Below, in pieces: positions 597 through 17,353 of a DNA stretch of 24,221 nucleotides (the first letter of the stretch is position 1; each line of letters begins with the position of its first letter). Source of the DNA: a virus; IMG/VR virus record IMGVR_UViG_3300037193_000610, positions 1 through 24,221 of that record, one strand, 5' to 3'. The translations under genes and the position numbers were made by a program. The notes under the pieces are model-generated. The model saw nothing but the letters and a program-made list of their open reading frames with translations, did not search any database and was not told the origin of the DNA.

Positions 597-811
597 TAAG
601 ACGGTTTTACGATTTCACTTTTCTTTAATATGTGTTCCTGGTCACGCAGTGTTATAAGGCAATGCTCTTTATTACTCCTCGCTTTTTGAATGGTTTCCCG
701 GTATACCTCAAATGCCTTGTGGTCTGGGTGCCATGTCATAGACTCTTTTCTAGGCTGACCATTAACAATCATTATTTTTTCTACATACGATTCTCTTTCT
801 GGTCCGCTCAT
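596..811 (-). CDS. Small unknown protein of the replication operon
   Basis: A 71-residue, charged and soluble product (MSGPERESYVEKIMIVNGQP...) that I do not recognise. It starts at 811, sharing one base with the stop of the primase-helicase gene, and its stop overlaps the NinG-like start by one base, so it is translated as part of the same operon. There are no cysteines arranged for metal binding and no membrane segment. The sequence VEVYRETIQKARSNKE-like region and the ending LRDQEHILKKSEIVKPS suggest a mostly helical small accessory protein. Position between a replicative helicase and NinG suggests a role in DNA replication or recombination, but this is only context. Confidence 0.75.
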   Translation of the reverse strand: MSGPERESYVEKIMIVNGQPRKESMTWHPDHKAFEVYRETIQKARSNKEHCLITLRDQEHILKKSEIVKPS

Positions 812-2502
812 TAGAATGGCATATCATCATCTTGCTTCGTACTCGACTCGCTGTAATCAATCAGTATTTCAGACTTATCAGCTGGTCTTAACCAATTCTG
901 AGTATCCGCTCCGTATTCGCTATATCTTCCGTTTTCCCTGTTCCAATTGTAAGCAATGCTTCCAATGCCTCCCCAGTATTTAAACTTAACCTTGAGAACA
1001 TTGAGGGTGTTTTTACCGTCTTCTTCTTTGTACATACAAAAACCAAGGTCGGCCTTGTTATAAAAATTGGCTGATCCACTGATATCGTAAAGACTTGGCT
1101 TGTCGTACTTGCCCGTTTTTTCATTCATCTTCATTTTTGTAGGGTGAGCCACTATAAAGCAATGAACGCCATTCTTTTTATTGAAGGTGGCTATTGTATC
1201 AAGACATCGGCTGACGTATGATGTACTGTCGTCGTGGTGTTCGAGTTTATTCCAAGGGTCTATCACGTACCAGTTGATACCGTGTTTTAAAACAGCCTGC
1301 CTAACCTTATTTAAAATCGATTCTAGCGTATATCCCTCTTCTGGGTATATCCAGTATACCCTTTCCTGGAAAAACGATTTAACGCGAAGGAAATCACTAT
1401 CGTAGTTTCCCCATGCCGTCTTTCCTATCATCTTCTCGACCAACTTTAAGAGATGCACTTCGGTCGGCCAGTTTTCAGGCGTGAAGAATGCGCCGCGTAA
1501 ATCATAGTCAAGGCAGAGCTGTAAAAGAATCTGATCAACGATTTCTGATTTACCATGTCCAGGTATTCCGGTTATCACGGAGGTATAACCTGGGAAGAAT
1601 TGAACATGGTCCCCTAAAGTGCCGCGTGGTTTCCAGCCTTTAGGGAACCCGTTCTTGAGTAGCTGCTCTAACGCTGACCAGTGGTCATCAATGCTAAATA
1701 TTCCTGTGATAGGGAAAGCCTTTTTTGTTTCGACGTTTACCCTGCCTTCTTTGCAAAGTTGCTCGTTAACGTCTTTGTATGGCATGATATCTACCCGGTA
1801 GCATTTTTCAACACCTATGCGCCGAGCCAGTTCATTGGCAAGATTTTCGCCTGGTTCGTCGTTGTCGGTTAGGATGTACACCTTCGCAACATCCTCGAAG
1901 TATGATGCACAGTTGTCGAAGTATTCAAAGTTGTTAGTTTTCTTATTAGCTCCATTCGGAACGCTGACGGTGTTTCTGAATCCAGCCTGAACCATTGTCA
2001 AACAATCCATTTCACCCTCGACAATGTAAACCTCTTTTTGGTCCCGGATTCCATCGAGATTGTAGAATATTAATTCCGCGTTCTTGTAAAGCTTGAAGTT
2101 TTTTTCACGGTCACGGTACTTAATATTCACCAAGTGGCCGTCCCGGAAGTAATTAAAGTTTATCACCTTACGCTCAGATTCAACTTGCGGCATCCATTGC
2201 ACGCTTTCCGTAACCTTCATTTCAAGCAATGTTGCCTGGCTAATATTCCTTGATTGGAACCATTCAACGATAGCGTCCGACAATCCTGTTTGGTTCTCCC
2301 ACTTCGGCATGGCATACTGCTTTTTGTGGATAGATCCCTTCCAGTTACAATGATTGCAGTGCCAAATACCGTGGTCGATATTAACACCAAGACACTTCTG
2401 GTTTTTCTTCTTACGATCGTGGCTGCAGTTCGGGCAAGTAGTGTAAACCTGACCTGAAACCTTACCGCGTGGTATTTCGATATTGTAGTCAGAATAGGTC
2501 AT
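811..2502 (-). CDS. Bifunctional primase-helicase (T7 gp4/Twinkle type)
   Basis: This 563-residue protein combines an N-terminal zinc ribbon (C23xxC26, C49xxC52), a TOPRIM fold (acidic E162 in YIVEGEMD; D213 and D215 in ILTDND) and a RecA-like DnaB/Twinkle helicase domain with Walker A GIPGHGKS at 312-319 and a Walker B-like strand YVIDPW at about 420-425. Proteins of this architecture make primers and unwind the fork as ring helicases in phage replication. The intact TOPRIM acidic residues argue that primase activity is retained. Its start overlaps the stop of the initiator gene by 4 bases (ATGA), indicating coupled translation. The length is near that of T7 gp4. The GMY-type polymerase is not in the window, so the phage probably uses the host polymerase. 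Confidence 0.93.
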   Translation of the reverse strand: MTYSDYNIEIPRGKVSGQVYTTCPNCSHDRKKKNQKCLGVNIDHGIWHCNHCNWKGSIHKKQYAMPKWENQTGLSDAIVEWFQSRNISQATLLEMKVTESVQWMPQVESERKVINFNYFRDGHLVNIKYRDREKNFKLYKNAELIFYNLDGIRDQKEVYIVEGEMDCLTMVQAGFRNTVSVPNGANKKTNNFEYFDNCASYFEDVAKVYILTDNDEPGENLANELARRIGVEKCYRVDIMPYKDVNEQLCKEGRVNVETKKAFPITGIFSIDDHWSALEQLLKNGFPKGWKPRGTLGDHVQFFPGYTSVITGIPGHGKSEIVDQILLQLCLDYDLRGAFFTPENWPTEVHLLKLVEKMIGKTAWGNYDSDFLRVKSFFQERVYWIYPEEGYTLESILNKVRQAVLKHGINWYVIDPWNKLEHHDDSTSYVSRCLDTIATFNKKNGVHCFIVAHPTKMKMNEKTGKYDKPSLYDISGSANFYNKADLGFCMYKEEDGKNTLNVLKVKFKYWGGIGSIAYNWNRENGRYSEYGADTQNWLRPADKSEILIDYSESSTKQDDDMPF

Positions 2503-3194
2503 TGCAATTTGTTGGGGTTAACTTGTTCCGATATCGTGGCCGGTTTCTTGAAGTTGTTCCGACTCCAGCGCGCGAGGCGTTTCTGAACATCCCAAGTCCT
2601 TTCCATCTCGAACCGAACCTTGGTGTTTTTGTTATTGCCCTCAGTCCAGTAATCGTAAAAGTCTCGGATCATCTCCTTTCCGTAAACCGCAACAAATGGA
2701 GCTAACGTCTTACCGAACTCACGGACCCTTTCCTCAACAGTTTTTGAATCAACACTATCATATATATTATTCTTCTTTACATTCTTTACATTCTTACATT
2801 CTTGTATAGTGTTCACTTGTTGTTCACTCGTTGTTCGGTTGTTGTTCACTCGTTGTTCATCTTGCTGTTCACCACCTTGGTATTCTTCCCATGAAATCAA
2901 TGAAATTAGCCTGCATTCGCTGCTTGTTTGTTGTTCAATTTGTTGTTCACTTTCGAAGGTTTTTAAAATTCTTTGAACCTTGCTCTCAGAAATTTTTAGT
3001 TTACTTGAGATAAGTTTTCGCCCAGTTATGAGTTGGCCAGGCACCAGAGTGATTTTTTTACCGCAAAAAAATGTTTGATATTCCTTGTGCGTCGCGTTAA
3101 GTAGAATGTAATTCCACACAGCGATGTGATCGCTATCCTTGCACACGACGGGGTTATCTAGCACCTTACGGTGTAGCTTAATCCAGCCTTCCAT
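2499..3194 (-). CDS. Replication initiator/replisome organiser, winged-helix N-terminus
   Basis: A 231-residue protein. Residues 1-105 (start MEGWIKLHRKVLDNPV, then WNYILLNATHKE, and ITGRKLISSKLKISESKVQRIL) match the winged-helix N-terminal domain common in phage O-like and DnaD-like initiators, including a clear helix-turn-helix. Residues about 110-150 are a low-complexity Q/N/E/T linker that is encoded by the 11-bp DNA repeats described separately. The C-terminal third carries RFEMERTWDVQKRLARW, resembling helicase-loader tails. It starts the block initiator, primase-helicase, small gene, NinG-like; the ATGA overlap with the helicase gene indicates coupling. By analogy to lambda O it should bind the origin within its own gene and recruit the helicase. 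Function inferred from architecture and context. Confidence 0.8.
   Translation of the reverse strand: MEGWIKLHRKVLDNPVVCKDSDHIAVWNYILLNATHKEYQTFFCGKKITLVPGQLITGRKLISSKLKISESKVQRILKTFESEQQIEQQTSSECRLISLISWEEYQGGEQQDEQRVNNNRTTSEQQVNTIQECKNVKNVKKNNIYDSVDSKTVEERVREFGKTLAPFVAVYGKEMIRDFYDYWTEGNNKNTKVRFEMERTWDVQKRLARWSRNNFKKPATISEQVNPNKLQ
2748..2808. other. AT-rich tract with tandem TTCTTTACA repeats, candidate unwinding element
   Basis: Directly beside the phased repeats, on the side toward the helicase gene, lies an AT-rich stretch: TATATATTAT at about 2760-2770, then TTCTTTACA at 2773-2781, the same nine bases at 2782-2790, a shortened TTCTTACA at 2791-2798 and a partial fourth copy. AT-rich tandem repeats next to initiator iterons are the usual layout of a DNA unwinding element. 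These nine-base repeats are in codon phase, so here a peptide repeat (KNVKNVK) could also explain them; the case rests on position and composition. Confidence 0.5.
2809..2950. repeat. Phased iteron-like repeats (TGTTCAC), candidate replication origin
   Basis: The heptamer TGTTCAC or a one- or two-base variant occurs at 2810, 2821, 2832 (TGTTCGG), 2843, 2854 (TGTTCAT) and 2866, a spacing of 11, 11, 11, 11 and 12 bases, with two further copies at 2932 (TGTTCAA) and 2944. All lie on one strand within the initiator gene. Because 11 is not a multiple of three, the repeats fall in different codon phases, so they are conserved as DNA and not as a peptide repeat. One repeat per helical turn puts every site on the same DNA face, which suits an array of initiator dimers. 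This is the arrangement seen in lambda, where iterons for O lie inside gene O. Confidence 0.65.
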
Positions 3195-3226: not shown

Positions 3227-3607
3227 TCACGTGTTATGTAAGAAATCCGTTAGGTCTTGAAACTTCTCCTCTCTATTCCCGGAACCTTGAAAATGTCTTC
3301 TTAACGATGTCGCCAACGCGTATAATTTACGTCGGTTCAATCCTGTCATTGAAAACATGTTGATCAAAAACTGATCGTTGCTTTTAAGGTTCTCCTCATC
3401 TTTATGGCACGTATCACACACGGTTAATAAATGCTCATCATCGTACTCCCAAGGTTTGCGATTTGGGAGGTAAAGGACGTGGTGACTATTTAGTGTCTCT
3501 TCCGTGTTACCACAGAAACGACACTTCCAGTTGTCCCTTTCCATAATTTGCAACCTCTTTTTCTGCCAATGCGGCGAACGCAACAGTGTTGAATAATCCT
3601 CTTTCAT
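3227..3607 (-). CDS. HNH endonuclease
   Basis: A 126-residue protein with a complete HNH nuclease: a first CxxC (WKCRFCGN), the paired histidines in NSHHVLYLP, the conserved asparagine region around EHLLTVCDTCHKDEENL, and a second CxxC. These residues bind zinc and a catalytic metal. The N-terminal RSPHWQKKRLQIMERDNW is the usual lead-in helix of free-standing phage HNH enzymes. In phages such proteins cut DNA during replication, recombination or packaging, or are homing nucleases; its site at the head of the replication block rather than next to the terminase favours the first group. It is the first gene after a 217-base gap with a candidate promoter and operator. The next gene starts 32 bases beyond its stop. 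Confidence 0.88.
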   Translation of the reverse strand: MKEDYSTLLRSPHWQKKRLQIMERDNWKCRFCGNTEETLNSHHVLYLPNRKPWEYDDEHLLTVCDTCHKDEENLKSNDQFLINMFSMTGLNRRKLYALATSLRRHFQGSGNREEKFQDLTDFLHNT

Positions 3608-9852: not shown

Positions 9853-10599
9853 TCAGGCACATACGAGCTCCTTTTTTATGGACAGCATTCCGTTCGACGC
9901 AAACTCATTCAGCCATTGTCTCCACAGTGGGACACGCTCGTAAACCTTATCGATGGTTTCGCTATTCTTTTTGACTACCGATTCATGAATCCTGTCTTTC
10001 AGCGGGATGTCCTCAAACTTCATCTCTCTTTCAATGGCCGAGCACACTTCCAGGTATTCCGGGTTCTCCATAGTCGGTACGTTCATTTTATAGAACGTGC
10101 GGCGCTTCTCATCCTCTATAAGCACCGATGGCGTGTCGATCAGGCAGAAGCCGACAGAACCTTCATTGAAGTCGTACAGGTCGCAATAGCCATTGATCTG
10201 GTATTCGTACTCCTTTTTCAGTTTACTGATCTTATGAGCCATGAACGTGTGAAGATCCCAGCAACTTTTTGTGTCAATCAGACGTGGATTGATAATGTCG
10301 GCCTCTCCGGTAATGAACTCGTTGGACTTTCGTTCGGTGTTCTTAAAGAAGGGAATCATGTGAACTCTTGAAAGGAGCGTAATCGAATCCTCTTCAACCT
10401 GTAATCCCTTTTCAATGTATTTGCTTGTGATCTCCTTGTCCCGACCGTAAACTTCCTTCACGTAGATTTTTACAAGTTCCTTAATGGCGGTTTCTGAAAG
10501 CTCACCGATTGACTTTGTGTCTTTCTTCCCTGGTTGATTGGTCATCAGATTACCAAGGGATGAGCAGCGGAATAACTGTTTTGAAAAATCGTGTGTCAT
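9853..10599 (-). CDS. YqaJ-like PD-(D/E)XK recombination exonuclease
   Basis: The 248-residue protein has the lambda-exonuclease/YqaJ type active site: helix KGLQVEEDSITLL, then GEADIINPRLIDTKSCWD with the D and x-T-K acid-lysine set, and EYEYQINGYCDLY downstream. These nucleases digest one strand of dsDNA ends to feed an annealing protein. The start overlaps the stop of recT by 4 bases, giving an Exo-RecT pair. The TGA at 9855-9853 is followed in the same frame by 29 further sense codons to a TGA at 9765-9763; if the first stop were read, CA-x-C would complete a CxxC pair matching a later CRYC, that is, a zinc ribbon. The gap to the next gene otherwise holds no gene. Confidence 0.85.
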   Translation of the reverse strand: MTHDFSKQLFRCSSLGNLMTNQPGKKDTKSIGELSETAIKELVKIYVKEVYGRDKEITSKYIEKGLQVEEDSITLLSRVHMIPFFKNTERKSNEFITGEADIINPRLIDTKSCWDLHTFMAHKISKLKKEYEYQINGYCDLYDFNEGSVGFCLIDTPSVLIEDEKRRTFYKMNVPTMENPEYLEVCSAIEREMKFEDIPLKDRIHESVVKKNSETIDKVYERVPLWRQWLNEFASNGMLSIKKELVCA

Positions 10600-11324
10600 G
10601 ACAAATCCCTCATGCGTTCGTTGAACAATTCCATTTGCTCAGGTTGTACGTGTGGACGGATCGTTTTAAGATCATCAAGGTTACGCGCATCCTTTATCAT
10701 AAGCTCGATTCGCTCGGCTTCTTTTGTTTTCCGTGCTACTTCCGGTGTAACTACTTCAACCGGGGTAATATCAATCGCCTCATCTTCGGTGTGCATACCC
10801 ATAAGCAGGTCCGGGGCGTGAAGCCGTCCGAAGAATGCAGCGGAACGATAGCGGAACATAAGCTCAGGCATTGTTTTCCATTTGCTTCCGGGTTTAGAAA
10901 GCCAGCCCTCAGCCTTAACCATATCCCAGGTCACAGCAGGGCTAACAAGTTCTTCGCCTGTCTTTCTGTCTTTGGCGTATGCCTCATAACCATAAGAGTC
11001 CTTTCCGGTCTCACCGACCTGACGGAAATTCAACTTTGTAAATCGTCCGCAGCTATTGATTGTCGCGATGGTGAACGGGCTGGACCATGATGGCTTACCC
11101 TGGATAACGTGAAGGTTTTGCATTACCATGAGCGGCGAGGCGTTGATCCGATGCGCCATTTCCAGAGCGATGAGGCAGTTTGAAATCTTACCTCTGTACA
11201 CTTCAGGGACTAGATTAGAATCAGACATAATCTTTGCAATGCGTTGAGCGTGATCGAAGCCGGCGACCGAAAAGACACCCGATTCTTCAATCGTCGCTGA
11301 TGCTGTTGTTAAAGCGGTTTCCAT
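10596..11324 (-). CDS. recT: RecT-family single-strand annealing protein
   Basis: The 242-residue product has the RecT family order: ALEMAHRINASPLMVMQNLHV, GKPSWSSPFTIATINSCGRF, ATYA-like YGYEAYAKDRKTGE, WLSKPGSKWKTMPELMFRYRSAAFFGR and a variable C-terminal tail. RecT-type proteins coat ssDNA and anneal homologous strands. The next gene is its partner nuclease, overlapped by 4 bases. The tail from about 195 is helical and charged, likely the interaction part. Family call is firm. A terminator-like hairpin lies upstream (11372-11400), so it may be the first gene of its own segment, with a promoter in 11325-11365. Confidence 0.92.
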   Translation of the reverse strand: METALTTASATIEESGVFSVAGFDHAQRIAKIMSDSNLVPEVYRGKISNCLIALEMAHRINASPLMVMQNLHVIQGKPSWSSPFTIATINSCGRFTKLNFRQVGETGKDSYGYEAYAKDRKTGEELVSPAVTWDMVKAEGWLSKPGSKWKTMPELMFRYRSAAFFGRLHAPDLLMGMHTEDEAIDITPVEVVTPEVARKTKEAERIELMIKDARNLDDLKTIRPHVQPEQMELFNERMRDLS

Positions 11325-14114: not shown

Positions 14115-14312
14115 CTATGCCTTTATATTTTCTTTGTTCGCACCGATCTCAGCCAACTCACACAATGCTTCCGGCATTTTTAACTTCCGGCCCTTCTCGC
14201 GCTCCCGTGACTTGTATGTATTTACCATGCTCCAGATTTTAACCGGCGCTTTTACATCACCAATGGTTACAAAGTCACTTGCTGCGTTACCCCCTGTTTC
14301 GTCTGCTTTCAT
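14115..14312 (-). CDS. First gene of the leftward early operon, unknown
   Basis: A 65-residue product (KADETGGNAASDFVTIGDVK, then SREREKGRKLKMPEALCELA) placed directly after the repressor's divergent control region, where Cro-like or early regulatory proteins usually sit. No HTH is obvious; the C-terminal PEALCELAEIGANKENI is a single helix. Function unknown. Confidence 0.6.
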   Translation of the reverse strand: MKADETGGNAASDFVTIGDVKAPVKIWSMVNTYKSREREKGRKLKMPEALCELAEIGANKENIKA

Positions 14313-14403
14313 ATTTTGTCATATATTGTCCTATTGATATGATAAAGGTATAAAAAAGTATAAGACATTCTAACACTTTAGTGTAATTTTTTTTACAGGA
14401 AAA
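14313..14403. promoter_or_regulatory. Divergent early/repressor control region with two palindromes
   Basis: This very AT-rich gap separates the leftward operon from the rightward repressor. It has an imperfect inverted repeat, TTTgTCATAT (14315-14324) and ATATGAtAAA (14337-14346), and a second palindrome ACACT-TT-AGTGT (14373-14384) just before the repressor start. For leftward transcription TACCTTTA (plus 14343-14350) resembles the Bacteroidota -7 box, with a weak TTAG 19 bases upstream. A tract of eight Ts and AGGA precede the repressor ATG. The palindromes are the natural operator candidates. Confidence 0.5.
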
Positions 14404-14790
14404 ATGACATTGCGAGAGAAATTTAATAAGATACTGAAGCACAATGAGTTAGGGTTAACTTCAATAGAAGATATTGCTCAGTATTGTGGGCTAAAGGTTA
14501 GTACTTTATACCGTGCAATGACCAGAAATGAGGAACAAGGTGGCGACTTAAGTACTGATACAGTTAAGACAATAGTGGATAAAATTGGACTTAGGTGGGA
14601 ATGGTGGGATGAGCAGAAAGATCCGATGTTTAAAGAAAAATCTTACACCGGCAATAAAACCAACGAACCGACATTAAATGAAAAAAGCGAGGATCCTTAC
14701 GAATTGATAAGGATCCTCGCCAGAAATATTGATCGATTAGGAGAAACGAATGAGTATCTTCTAAAGCGAGTCAAAGAACTTGGTGGTTAA
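14404..14790 (+). CDS. CI-like phage repressor with HTH and C-terminal coiled coil
   Basis: A 128-residue protein on the strand opposite to the early operon. Residues 1-70 form an HTH (IEDIAQYCGLKVSTLYRAMT, with a second helix pair around LSTDTVKTIVDKIG). A short polar linker follows and the last 35 residues are a heptad-type coiled coil (DPYELIRILARNIDRLGETN). The position and orientation are those of a lysogeny repressor. It lacks the S24 LexA/CI-like autoprotease domain that gives SOS-cleavable repressors, so induction must work otherwise. It could also be an antirepressor-type or Cro-like regulator. It overlaps a convergent gene by 4 bases. Confidence 0.75.
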   Translation: MTLREKFNKILKHNELGLTSIEDIAQYCGLKVSTLYRAMTRNEEQGGDLSTDTVKTIVDKIGLRWEWWDEQKDPMFKEKSYTGNKTNEPTLNEKSEDPYELIRILARNIDRLGETNEYLLKRVKELGG

Positions 14791-16063: not shown

Positions 16064-17353
16064 TCATCCGACGACACGATCGACAGCGGTCACTATGTGT
16101 TCAGACTTCCATCCGATATAATCCTCGGTCTGCTTAATATTTGAGTGGCCATAGTAAATCTGAAGGCTGCGGATATCCTCCCCTACTTCAAGCCAGCGCC
16201 GGCCGAAGGTTCGTCTGGCTGTATGCGTGGTGATCATGGAGTATTTTGGTAGCATATCGCGCACGCGCTCACTTCCGCGAAACCGCACTTTCTCGACAAG
16301 ATCCAAAAGCCCGCTTTTCTTGCCTTTCTTCTCCCAAGCCTTGCCAGCAGCTAAAGCGATGCTCTTTATTTTCACATTCAAGTCACTTTCTGAGCATCTG
16401 GGTACCCGGTAGTTCCATTGCTTGAGCAGGGTGGCGGCCTTCCCGGCCATCTTAATATTATGATCGAGTTTTGTTTTGATGACCGTACAATCCAGGTAAA
16501 CGCCATCCTTCCGCTTGATGAAGTTCTCGGGCTTTGCGTTGTACGCGTCTGAATGTCTCAGACCTGTATAGCATTGGAATAGAAAGAAGTCACGGTATGG
16601 CTCATCCTCTTCAAGTGGCTCGAACTCTTCCAAGCAGGCAATATCTGTTTCCCAATCCAGAAAGAAAGGCTTTGGCTTTACGTACGTGTCTTTGAATTGC
16701 TGGAAGTCAATTGGTATATCCTGATGCCTGGTGCGCGGATCTGACAGAGCTGATTTCATAACCGAGCATATTTTTTTAATAATCCCGGATGCGGTGTTGC
16801 TCTCGCGTTCAAGGGTTTCAAACAGATGGTTAAGGAGGTCGTAATAGAATTGAATAGTGATATCGGTAAAATATATTTGATCCCGGTCGACCACTGTTTT
16901 AATGTGACCCATTGCCGATTTGAATTTCCTTAAGTAGCCCTTATCTGAGCAGGTCGAACGCCGGTCTTTTATATACATATCCCAATATTCATCGAAACGG
17001 TATTCTGGCTTTTTAAGCACGACATTCAGCGGCTGATGTTTTCGAACCGCATTGTATCGCCGACGCACCTCTTCAACGGTTGGGGCGACGCGCTCATAAT
17101 CCAGTTCATCAAATACACGTTGTAGGTCTCCTTTCCTTTTATCGAGATCGCCGGTAAGCTTCTGGCGCAGCTTCCGCTCCATCTTATCTGACTTAATAAC
17201 TTTATTTACCCGGTCCCATGCATCCTTATGAACTTTTACTCCGGTTGGAAACCAACCTGGTTTGTTGTTAATTGAGACATACATATAAAGTCGACAGAAA
17301 TCATCACTGTCAACAGTTGAATAGGGGAAGATGCTTATATCACGGACAGCCAT
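16064..17353 (-). CDS. int: Tyrosine integrase/recombinase, Bacteroidota type
   Basis: A 429-residue protein with three parts: an N-terminal arm-binding domain (about 1-110, with GWFPTGVKVHKDAW), a SAM-like core-binding domain (about 118-225) and a catalytic domain holding R266 (CYTGLRHSDA), HTAR (H377, R380), GHS (H403) and the nucleophile Y412 (EDYIGW). All the catalytic residues expected of an active enzyme are present. It performs site-specific integration and excision between attP and attB. It starts beside the candidate attP and its first codons overlap an arm-type repeat, so its binding could repress its own gene. The length is usual for the family. Confidence 0.95.
   Translation of the reverse strand: MAVRDISIFPYSTVDSDDFCRLYMYVSINNKPGWFPTGVKVHKDAWDRVNKVIKSDKMERKLRQKLTGDLDKRKGDLQRVFDELDYERVAPTVEEVRRRYNAVRKHQPLNVVLKKPEYRFDEYWDMYIKDRRSTCSDKGYLRKFKSAMGHIKTVVDRDQIYFTDITIQFYYDLLNHLFETLERESNTASGIIKKICSVMKSALSDPRTRHQDIPIDFQQFKDTYVKPKPFFLDWETDIACLEEFEPLEEDEPYRDFFLFQCYTGLRHSDAYNAKPENFIKRKDGVYLDCTVIKTKLDHNIKMAGKAATLLKQWNYRVPRCSESDLNVKIKSIALAAGKAWEKKGKKSGLLDLVEKVRFRGSERVRDMLPKYSMITTHTARRTFGRRWLEVGEDIRSLQIYYGHSNIKQTEDYIGWKSEHIVTAVDRVVG

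Follow-up and report, generated by a model that had tools for sequence, protein, structure and literature searches.

The window analysed here, a virus record of 24,221 bp to which all positions below refer, very probably carries a phage replication origin inside the gene for its own initiator, composed of iterons and an AT-rich box that would be read by the product of the same gene. That product is a DnaD-like phage helicase loader with a winged-helix N-terminus, a disordered linker and an exchangeable C-terminus; the iterons lie approximately 245-390 bp inside the gene, as direct repeats between the sequences encoding the DNA-binding and C-terminal domains. They are read as an origin because they adjoin the 50-bp stretch with the lowest stability in the record, within a helicase-loader gene and beside a primase-helicase gene. 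Relatives in phages of different bacterial phyla repeat the layout. A first-pass annotation made from the DNA alone had proposed a lambda-like origin in this gene with shorter, helically spaced iterons, and the comparative evidence supports that proposal.

Eight sites of the GTGAACAAC type were found on the minus strand (A1, A2 and B1 to B6 in Table 1), with the G of the GAACA motif at 2948, 2936, 2870, 2858, 2847, 2836, 2825 and 2814; the steps between them are 12, 66, 12, 11, 11, 11 and 11 bases, and their codon phases 0, 0, 0, 0, 2, 1, 0 and 2. These are the same sites as had been described in the first-pass annotation, which listed steps of 11, 11, 11, 11 and 12 bases plus two further copies, out of codon phase and adjoining tandem AT-rich repeats. 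The latter were also recovered at 2773-2803, both as AAGAATG repeats (at 2797, 2789 and 2780) and as 3.6 copies of a period-9 repeat, TTCTTTACA, detected by Tandem Repeats Finder; the same program identified 5.6 copies of a period of 11 at 2810-2872 and a pair of 12-mers at 2927-2953. The array does fall within the originally proposed span of 2748-2950, of which approximately 2760-2950 are the useful limits. The accompanying suggestion that an 11-base step places all sites on one face of the helix is only roughly true, because on a helix of 10.5 bp per turn each such step adds a drift of around 17 degrees. The best self-match lag in the initiator gene is 11 (36 of 55 matches), a score reached by none of 2,000 dinucleotide shuffles and by two of 2,000 synonymous-codon shuffles, and GTGAACAAC with at most one mismatch occurs ten times in the 24,221 bp, six of them within this gene. 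Hence neither chance nor peptide coding accounts for the repeats.

As 11 is not a multiple of three, the same 11-mer is translated in three frames, as EQQ, VNN and RTT, and this frame order is kept in relatives with other iterons (GTGACCAGCAA in loci L005 and L011; GTGATAAACAA in L009). The linker encoded by the repeats is Q/N-rich and predicted to be disordered, with AlphaFold2 confidence (pLDDT) below 50 at residues 128-147, as would be expected if its peptide matters little. Synonymous-site conservation was compared as proposed along with the original description: at residues shared with the window, identical codons are more frequent in the A and B iterons (23 of 25 in L002, 22 of 27 in L003, 19 of 25 in L004 and 18 of 23 in L083) than in the DNA-binding domain (25 of 60, 25 of 61, 18 of 63 and 23 of 56, respectively). 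In the 29 of 71 proteins having the tetrapeptide TNKN, encoded by the box that follows the iterons, the codons AAC, AAG and AAT were each used in 29 of 29 cases, and the KN repeats after it use AAG in 46 of 46 and AAT in 46 of 46; elsewhere in the genes these codons have shares of 45% (AAC), 30% (AAG) and 55% (AAT). Such patterns indicate that the iterons and the box are under selection at the level of the DNA.

The arrangement was compared across 67 non-redundant proteins starting with MxGWIKLH, the window's included, with exact duplicates and proteins lacking that start left out; the relatives had been collected by matching six peptide patterns, and as WEEYQGGE and QECKNVKN among these touch the linker, the set is not wholly linker-blind. 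The best repeat step was 11 bp in 48 of the 67, the iterons themselves being widely different, and the lag-11 signal was significant in 48, meaning that it was matched by at most three of 300 synonymous shuffles. Initiators of the same family in Pseudomonas phage KLEP17-4, Staphylococcus phage SAP33, Lactobacillus phage Lc-Nu and Shewanella phage 3/49 have a step of 11 bp or its double. When the method was applied to lambda gene O as a control, the step of 23 was recovered (2 of 300 shuffles) but lag 11 was not (reached by 237 of 300). Neither an 11-bp step nor its double was found in the proteins of phages CRP5 and 11b, which share only the C-terminal domain. More generally, of 15 carriers of this C-terminal domain lacking the MxGWIKLH start, four had an 11-bp array; among the carriers, L015 has an N-terminal relative at 22% identity, and L043 is cut by its match start inside one.

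A box that hardly varies, ACAAACAAGAATGnnAAGAATG, closes these arrays. Of 51 arrays, 41 have only the first seven bases of their final iteron, directly before ACAAACAAGAATG (up to four mismatches allowed); the box is in frame 0 (TNKN) in 35 of these and in frame 1 (KQE type) in six. A scan of viral contigs with the pattern ACAAACAAGAATGNNAAGAATG returned at least 120 stretches, giving 104 distinct contexts; the counts that follow apply to the matches listed. All 104 lie in an open frame, at a median residue of 140, with the box in frame 0 in 101 and frame 1 in three, and the best step upstream was 11 in 71 and 22 in 24. An initiator N-terminal domain was present in 100, as judged with an HMM built without the scan sequences. 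Since the pattern was derived from the family, recovery of the family is to be expected, and the informative part is that almost nothing else matched. In the viral contigs, no match was obtained with the reversed pattern or with a box carrying a one-base synonymous change, and a fully synonymous form gave six matches, none in an initiator. Searches of whole genomes with a shortened box gave two positives among the 398 from the Paenibacillus phylum, including the centre genome, and six among the 395 from the Sphingobacterium phylum; the reversed control was found in neither set. With one locus from a separate search there are nine whole-genome loci, of which three had already been obtained as L082, L100 and L105, and all nine boxes lie in initiator genes.

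The sequence of the iterons varies with that of the protein. The register of each array was taken from the box, without reference to the protein, and was set by hand for the window, whose box lies one base further out. From 155 arrays, 123 had a consistent register, of which 120 had a recognisable N-terminus, 100 were non-redundant and 75 remained at below 75% identity; the unanchored arrays of the 51, L093 and L099 (by hand) and scan matches with fewer than 100 upstream residues had been left out before this count. Among the 75 representatives, Gln at residue 71 of the recognition helix accompanies A at iteron base 4 in 19 of 19 cases and Lys accompanies G in 12 of 12, whilst Arg is found with G in seven of nine and C in two, such that Lys and Arg pooled give 19 G and two C in 21; Ser, the residue of the window, occurs with G in 10 of 13 and A in three. 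Among 35 disjoint nearest pairs, those sharing residue 71 agreed at base 4 in 10 of 11 cases and those not sharing it in 10 of 24 (Fisher p = 0.009), pairs of Gln with Lys or Arg had A and G respectively in six of six, and residues 71, 74 and 75 occupied ranks one to three of 78 for iteron-core identity. Invariant columns gave no association score. From this covariation we infer that the initiator reads the sites in its own gene. The 60 bases encoding the wing also match iterons of their own type better than those of other relatives, in 87 of 95 genes (p = 4.8e-16; five of 100 genes were dropped), and a control stretch of the DNA-binding domain had no such preference (47 of 95, p = 0.54). Hence the two A sites at 2928-2950 are likely to be real, because their counterparts in relatives favour own-type iterons.

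DNA homology between the window and L002, L003, L004 and L083 stops at base 2773 in all four, and in L002 it resumes at 2504. The C-terminal domains of the window and L002 are unrelated, with no alignment better than E 2.8, and these comparisons indicate that the C-terminal domain is exchanged at base 2773. The possibility that this domain tracks the neighbouring helicase was not supported, as L002 keeps the primase-helicase (54% identity) with an unrelated C-terminal domain; L002 also keeps the HNH gene (58%). The initiator of L003 is identical to that of the Paenibacillus alvei locus L082.

Assignment of the protein rests on profile matches, to PHROG 2514 over residues 1-151 (E 3.6e-32) and PHROG 186 over residues 1-225 (E 4.1e-15); the Pfam family Phage_rep_org_N scored 16.6 bits, under its cut-off of 23.3. 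AlphaFold2 gave block means of 94-98 across residues 21-100, with helices modelled at 59-66 and 70-82 and wing strands at 86-90 and 95-99, and the N-terminal model resembles CAP-type winged helices (Z 9.3, rmsd 2.7, 74 residues aligned). A sequence search of the PDB with the N-terminus alone found no relative at a useful E-value, the profile designated A1 gave a weak FadR-type match (E 0.0022), and Foldseek returned no match to the initiator at E of 0.001 or below. Fold searches list generic winged helices such as CAP and CzrA, with no RepA_N or DnaD chain among the matches listed.

Table 1. Features of the initiator gene, the putative origin within it and the adjoining genes (window positions).
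Feature	Position	Strand	Details or basis
Initiator gene, DnaD-like helicase loader / phage replisome organiser	2499..3194	-	231 aa; PHROG 2514, PHROG 186
Winged-helix DNA-binding domain, residues 1-106	2877..3194	-	AlphaFold2 and structure comparison
Recognition helix, residues 70-82	2949..2987	-	Residues 71, 74 and 75 covary with iteron bases
Probable iteron A1, GTGAACAACAA	2940..2950	-	Within wing-coding stretch
Probable iteron A2, TTGAACAACAA	2928..2938	-	Within wing-coding stretch
Iteron B1, GTGAACAGCAA	2862..2872	-	Tandem Repeats Finder, site positions
Iteron B2, ATGAACAACGA	2850..2860	-	Tandem Repeats Finder, site positions
Iteron B3, GTGAACAACAA, read as VNN	2839..2849	-	Tandem Repeats Finder, codon comparison, site positions
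Iteron B4, CCGAACAACGA, read as RTT	2828..2838	-	Tandem Repeats Finder, codon comparison, site positions
Iteron B5, GTGAACAACAA, read as EQQ	2817..2827	-	Tandem Repeats Finder, codon comparison, site positions
Iteron B6, diverged 3' end (GTGAACACTAT)	2806..2816	-	Relatives have the initial seven bases of an iteron next to the box
AT-rich box, ACAAGAATG then AAGAATG repeats	2773..2805	-	Window form of the family box ACAAACAAGAATGnnAAGAATG
Proposed unwinding element	2760..2809	.	Least stable 50 bp of the record (nearest-neighbour energy)
Homology end / boundary of exchanged C-terminal module	2773..2773	.	L002, L003, L004, L083
Helical C-terminal domain, residues 153-216	2547..2738	-	Common to Riemerella and Flavobacterium phages
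Primase-helicase, Toprim and RecA-like	811..2502	-	PHROG 239, E 7.3e-86; Toprim_2, E 3.4e-11
HNH endonuclease gene, upstream of initiator	3227..3607	-	PHROG 119, E 1.3e-14; syntenic in L002

Origins within initiator genes have been described in other systems. In lambda, iterons and an AT-rich tract lie in the middle of the initiator gene O, according to the record annotation and the available text of PMC7466680, and the window resembles it in having both inside the initiator gene. Unlike the window, with its 11-bp steps, lambda has four 18-bp iterons (at 39034, 39054, 39078 and 39101) at steps of 20-24 bp, which rules out ori-lambda proper; the lambda locus contains no exact ACAAACAAGAATG, this being the only box search made in lambda. 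The layout is also like that of gp38 and oriL in SPP1, for which the parts of PMC6316719 available report nanomolar binding, a likeness at the level of description. In the plasmid pSK41, the accessible sections of PMC5703833 place the origin centrally in rep, between the N- and C-terminal domains as here, with the N-terminal domain binding the Rep boxes, the linker peptide dispensable and the C-terminal domain genus-specific. The same sections describe pPR9, where around 500 bp of a pSK41-type rep, comprising the N-terminal domain and origin, are replaced by a phage-like counterpart, which as described is similar to the proposed movement of these two parts as a unit in the present family. Unlike the window, pSK41 has four Rep boxes, which those sections do not report as a contiguous 11-bp array, and the window protein has no match to the RepA_N domain (PF06970) of such plasmid initiators at E up to 0.1. 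Repeats within a replication gene of Francisella phage KIRK have been proposed, by analogy only, as a lambda-like origin in the part of PMC7924643 available, and are likened to these by description. The replication genes rep of TP901-1 and orf11 of r1t, both lactococcal phages, similarly have internal repeats, but belong to a different N-terminal family and have a best step of 15 bp, in frame; r1t orf11 also has a weaker lag-11 signal (0 of 300 shuffles). The literature searched yielded no description of the fixed box, the 11-bp family or the helix code, although subscription reviews may cover part of them. By analogy, the best reading is that the origin is of the kind found in lambda O, SPP1 gp38 and pSK41 Rep, with a geometry and a box of its own.

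A number of observations weigh against an origin of this type, or against its generality. The box of the window is a variant: it is displaced outwards by one base and so has three mismatches when compared at the fixed spacing. The initiator gene contains no DnaA-box-like site with one mismatch or fewer, and cumulative GC skew, suggested in the first-pass annotation as a check, lends no support, its minimum being at around 13.5-14.5 kb with no turn at 2.8 kb; furthermore, the record may be a fragment, and another origin is then possible. Within the family, 19 of the 67 relatives miss the threshold of three in 300 shuffles, including L047, L049, L053, L056, L061, L068, L069, L092, L095 and L097. 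L068, L076 and L091 have 12-bp in-frame repeats, which are poorly judged by the lag-11 synonymous test, and nothing clear is evident in others, such as L092, L095 and L097. Retention of the Q/N linker with loss of the DNA repeat, the outcome that the first-pass annotation had named as contrary to its proposal, is thus absent in close relatives but does occur in part of the distant family. The array of Pseudomonas phage KLEP17-4 has no box at the fixed place (five mismatches); four of the 104 box contexts listed lack an N-terminal match, three of these starting near the edge of the open frame, while the fourth, L210, has a box with neither a GWIKLH-type domain nor an upstream 11-bp array, being possibly a box-only user or a chance match. 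In raw association, residues 58 (Z 14.6) and 59 (Z 15.2), outside the recognition helix, outscore residue 71 (Z 10.5), and relatedness therefore still contributes to the covariation.

The repeats might instead reflect the repeated residues of a low-complexity Q/N/K linker, perhaps expanded by slippage, given that the stretch does encode a disordered Q/N-rich linker and that the 9-bp and 12-bp repeats are in frame. This is scarcely credible, as the 11-bp repeats shift both frame and peptide, just two of the 2,000 synonymous shuffles reach the signal, the codons of the box are fixed in 29 of 29 proteins and the box with a one-base synonymous change is absent from the viral contigs. Initiators often autoregulate, and the sites could be an operator array through which the initiator represses or times its own operon, with replication starting elsewhere; sites bound by the same protein would covary with the recognition helix in the same way. 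However, the sites are found some 245-390 bp inside the gene, they border on the record's least stable DNA and on an AT-rich box that is conserved and constantly spaced, features that an operator does not need, and the precedents with this layout are, as far as the accessible descriptions go, origins, making an operator very improbable.

It also seems unlikely that the array is a secondary or late-phase site used when forks stall or when replication depends on recombination, the main origin being intergenic and near 14.3 kb. The skew minimum would be consistent with such an arrangement, as would the stretch at 14312-14361, which is almost as unstable as 2760-2809, and for SPP1 the available portion of PMC6316719 describes two origins, with a role in stalling also proposed for one of them. 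Yet no GTGAACAAC-type site with at most one mismatch occurs near 14.3 kb, and the skew minimum coincides with a change of gene orientation, which suffices to explain the switch. The wider region at 14306-14405, at the same orientation change and skew minimum, is the second very unstable stretch noted in the window.

Several further observations were made on the window and on loci related to it. The window encodes a RecT-like annealing protein (10596-11324; PHROG 561, E 5.4e-76) and a NinG-like protein (42-596; Pfam NinG, E 3.2e-34), which form a lambda-style recombination set, as well as a tyrosine integrase (16064-17353). The best 10 of 13 terminase records are from Bacteroidota phages or a faecal phage, and the best 10 of 190 RecT matches are all from Flavobacterium phages; as these and the C-terminal domain point to phages of Bacteroidota, the host is likely to belong to that phylum. 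Loci L027 and L034 combine the same C-terminal domain with a different N-terminus (start MSKELPFFKFNATEW) and have, at around gene position 294, an 11-bp array whose signal none of 300 synonymous shuffles reached, hence the layout may extend beyond one DNA-binding family. A large plasmid of Segatella hominis (L238, 1159-2466) encodes a 436-aa protein with two tandem GWIKLYR-type N-terminal domains, whose gene has an 11-bp repeat near position 809. The protein of Riemerella phage CRP5 (L113, 812-1495) that shares the C-terminal domain has 24-bp in-frame repeats encoding DTVSDTVL, rather than 11-bp iterons. In L067 the initiator frame is interrupted by a stop inside the box, at approximately 3383-3396, and in L107 (approximately 3270-3434) by a stop in the DNA-binding domain, with the array and box persisting downstream.

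The sites, their spacing, the selection on the DNA, the helix-iteron covariation and the module boundary are evident in the sequences, and from them we infer how binding, melting, helicase loading and fork direction may be organised at an origin within the initiator gene. The winged-helix domain would bind the 11-bp iterons, about one per helical turn, at two sites in the wing-coding stretch and five full and one diverged in the linker, and the bound initiators would form a compact nucleoprotein array. This could strain the adjacent AT-rich box at 2760-2809, causing it to open, whereupon the C-terminal domain, tethered by the flexible linker that the origin itself encodes, would recruit the replicative helicase. 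The helicase loaded in this way is likely to be the primase-helicase encoded by the next gene.

Whether the same organisation holds throughout a large initiator family, which is seen in phages of Bacillota, Bacteroidota and Proteobacteria, seems to us evenly balanced. Its members would share one origin grammar: a variable 11-bp array, a code relating residue 71 to base 4 (Gln with A, Lys or Arg with G), iterons within the wing-coding stretch, the near-invariant box ACAAACAAGAATGnnAAGAATG at fixed spacing with a reader that does not depend on the iterons, a cassette of DNA-binding domain and origin, and exchange of the C-terminus at the box. Candidates for the reader of the box would be a constant surface of the initiator acting on the opened single strand, the helicase or a host factor.

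Until now, initiator-internal origins have been known from individual phages or plasmids. Should the shared grammar hold, the sequence of any phage with this initiator would reveal the position of its origin and one helix would allow part of the iteron to be predicted; incompatibility or the exchange of cassettes could be anticipated as well. The near-invariant box raises the question of what reads the same AT-rich sequence across phyla. A single stretch of DNA would also fulfil three roles, as iterons, as the coding sequence of a linker peptide in shifting frames, and as a boundary for recombination.
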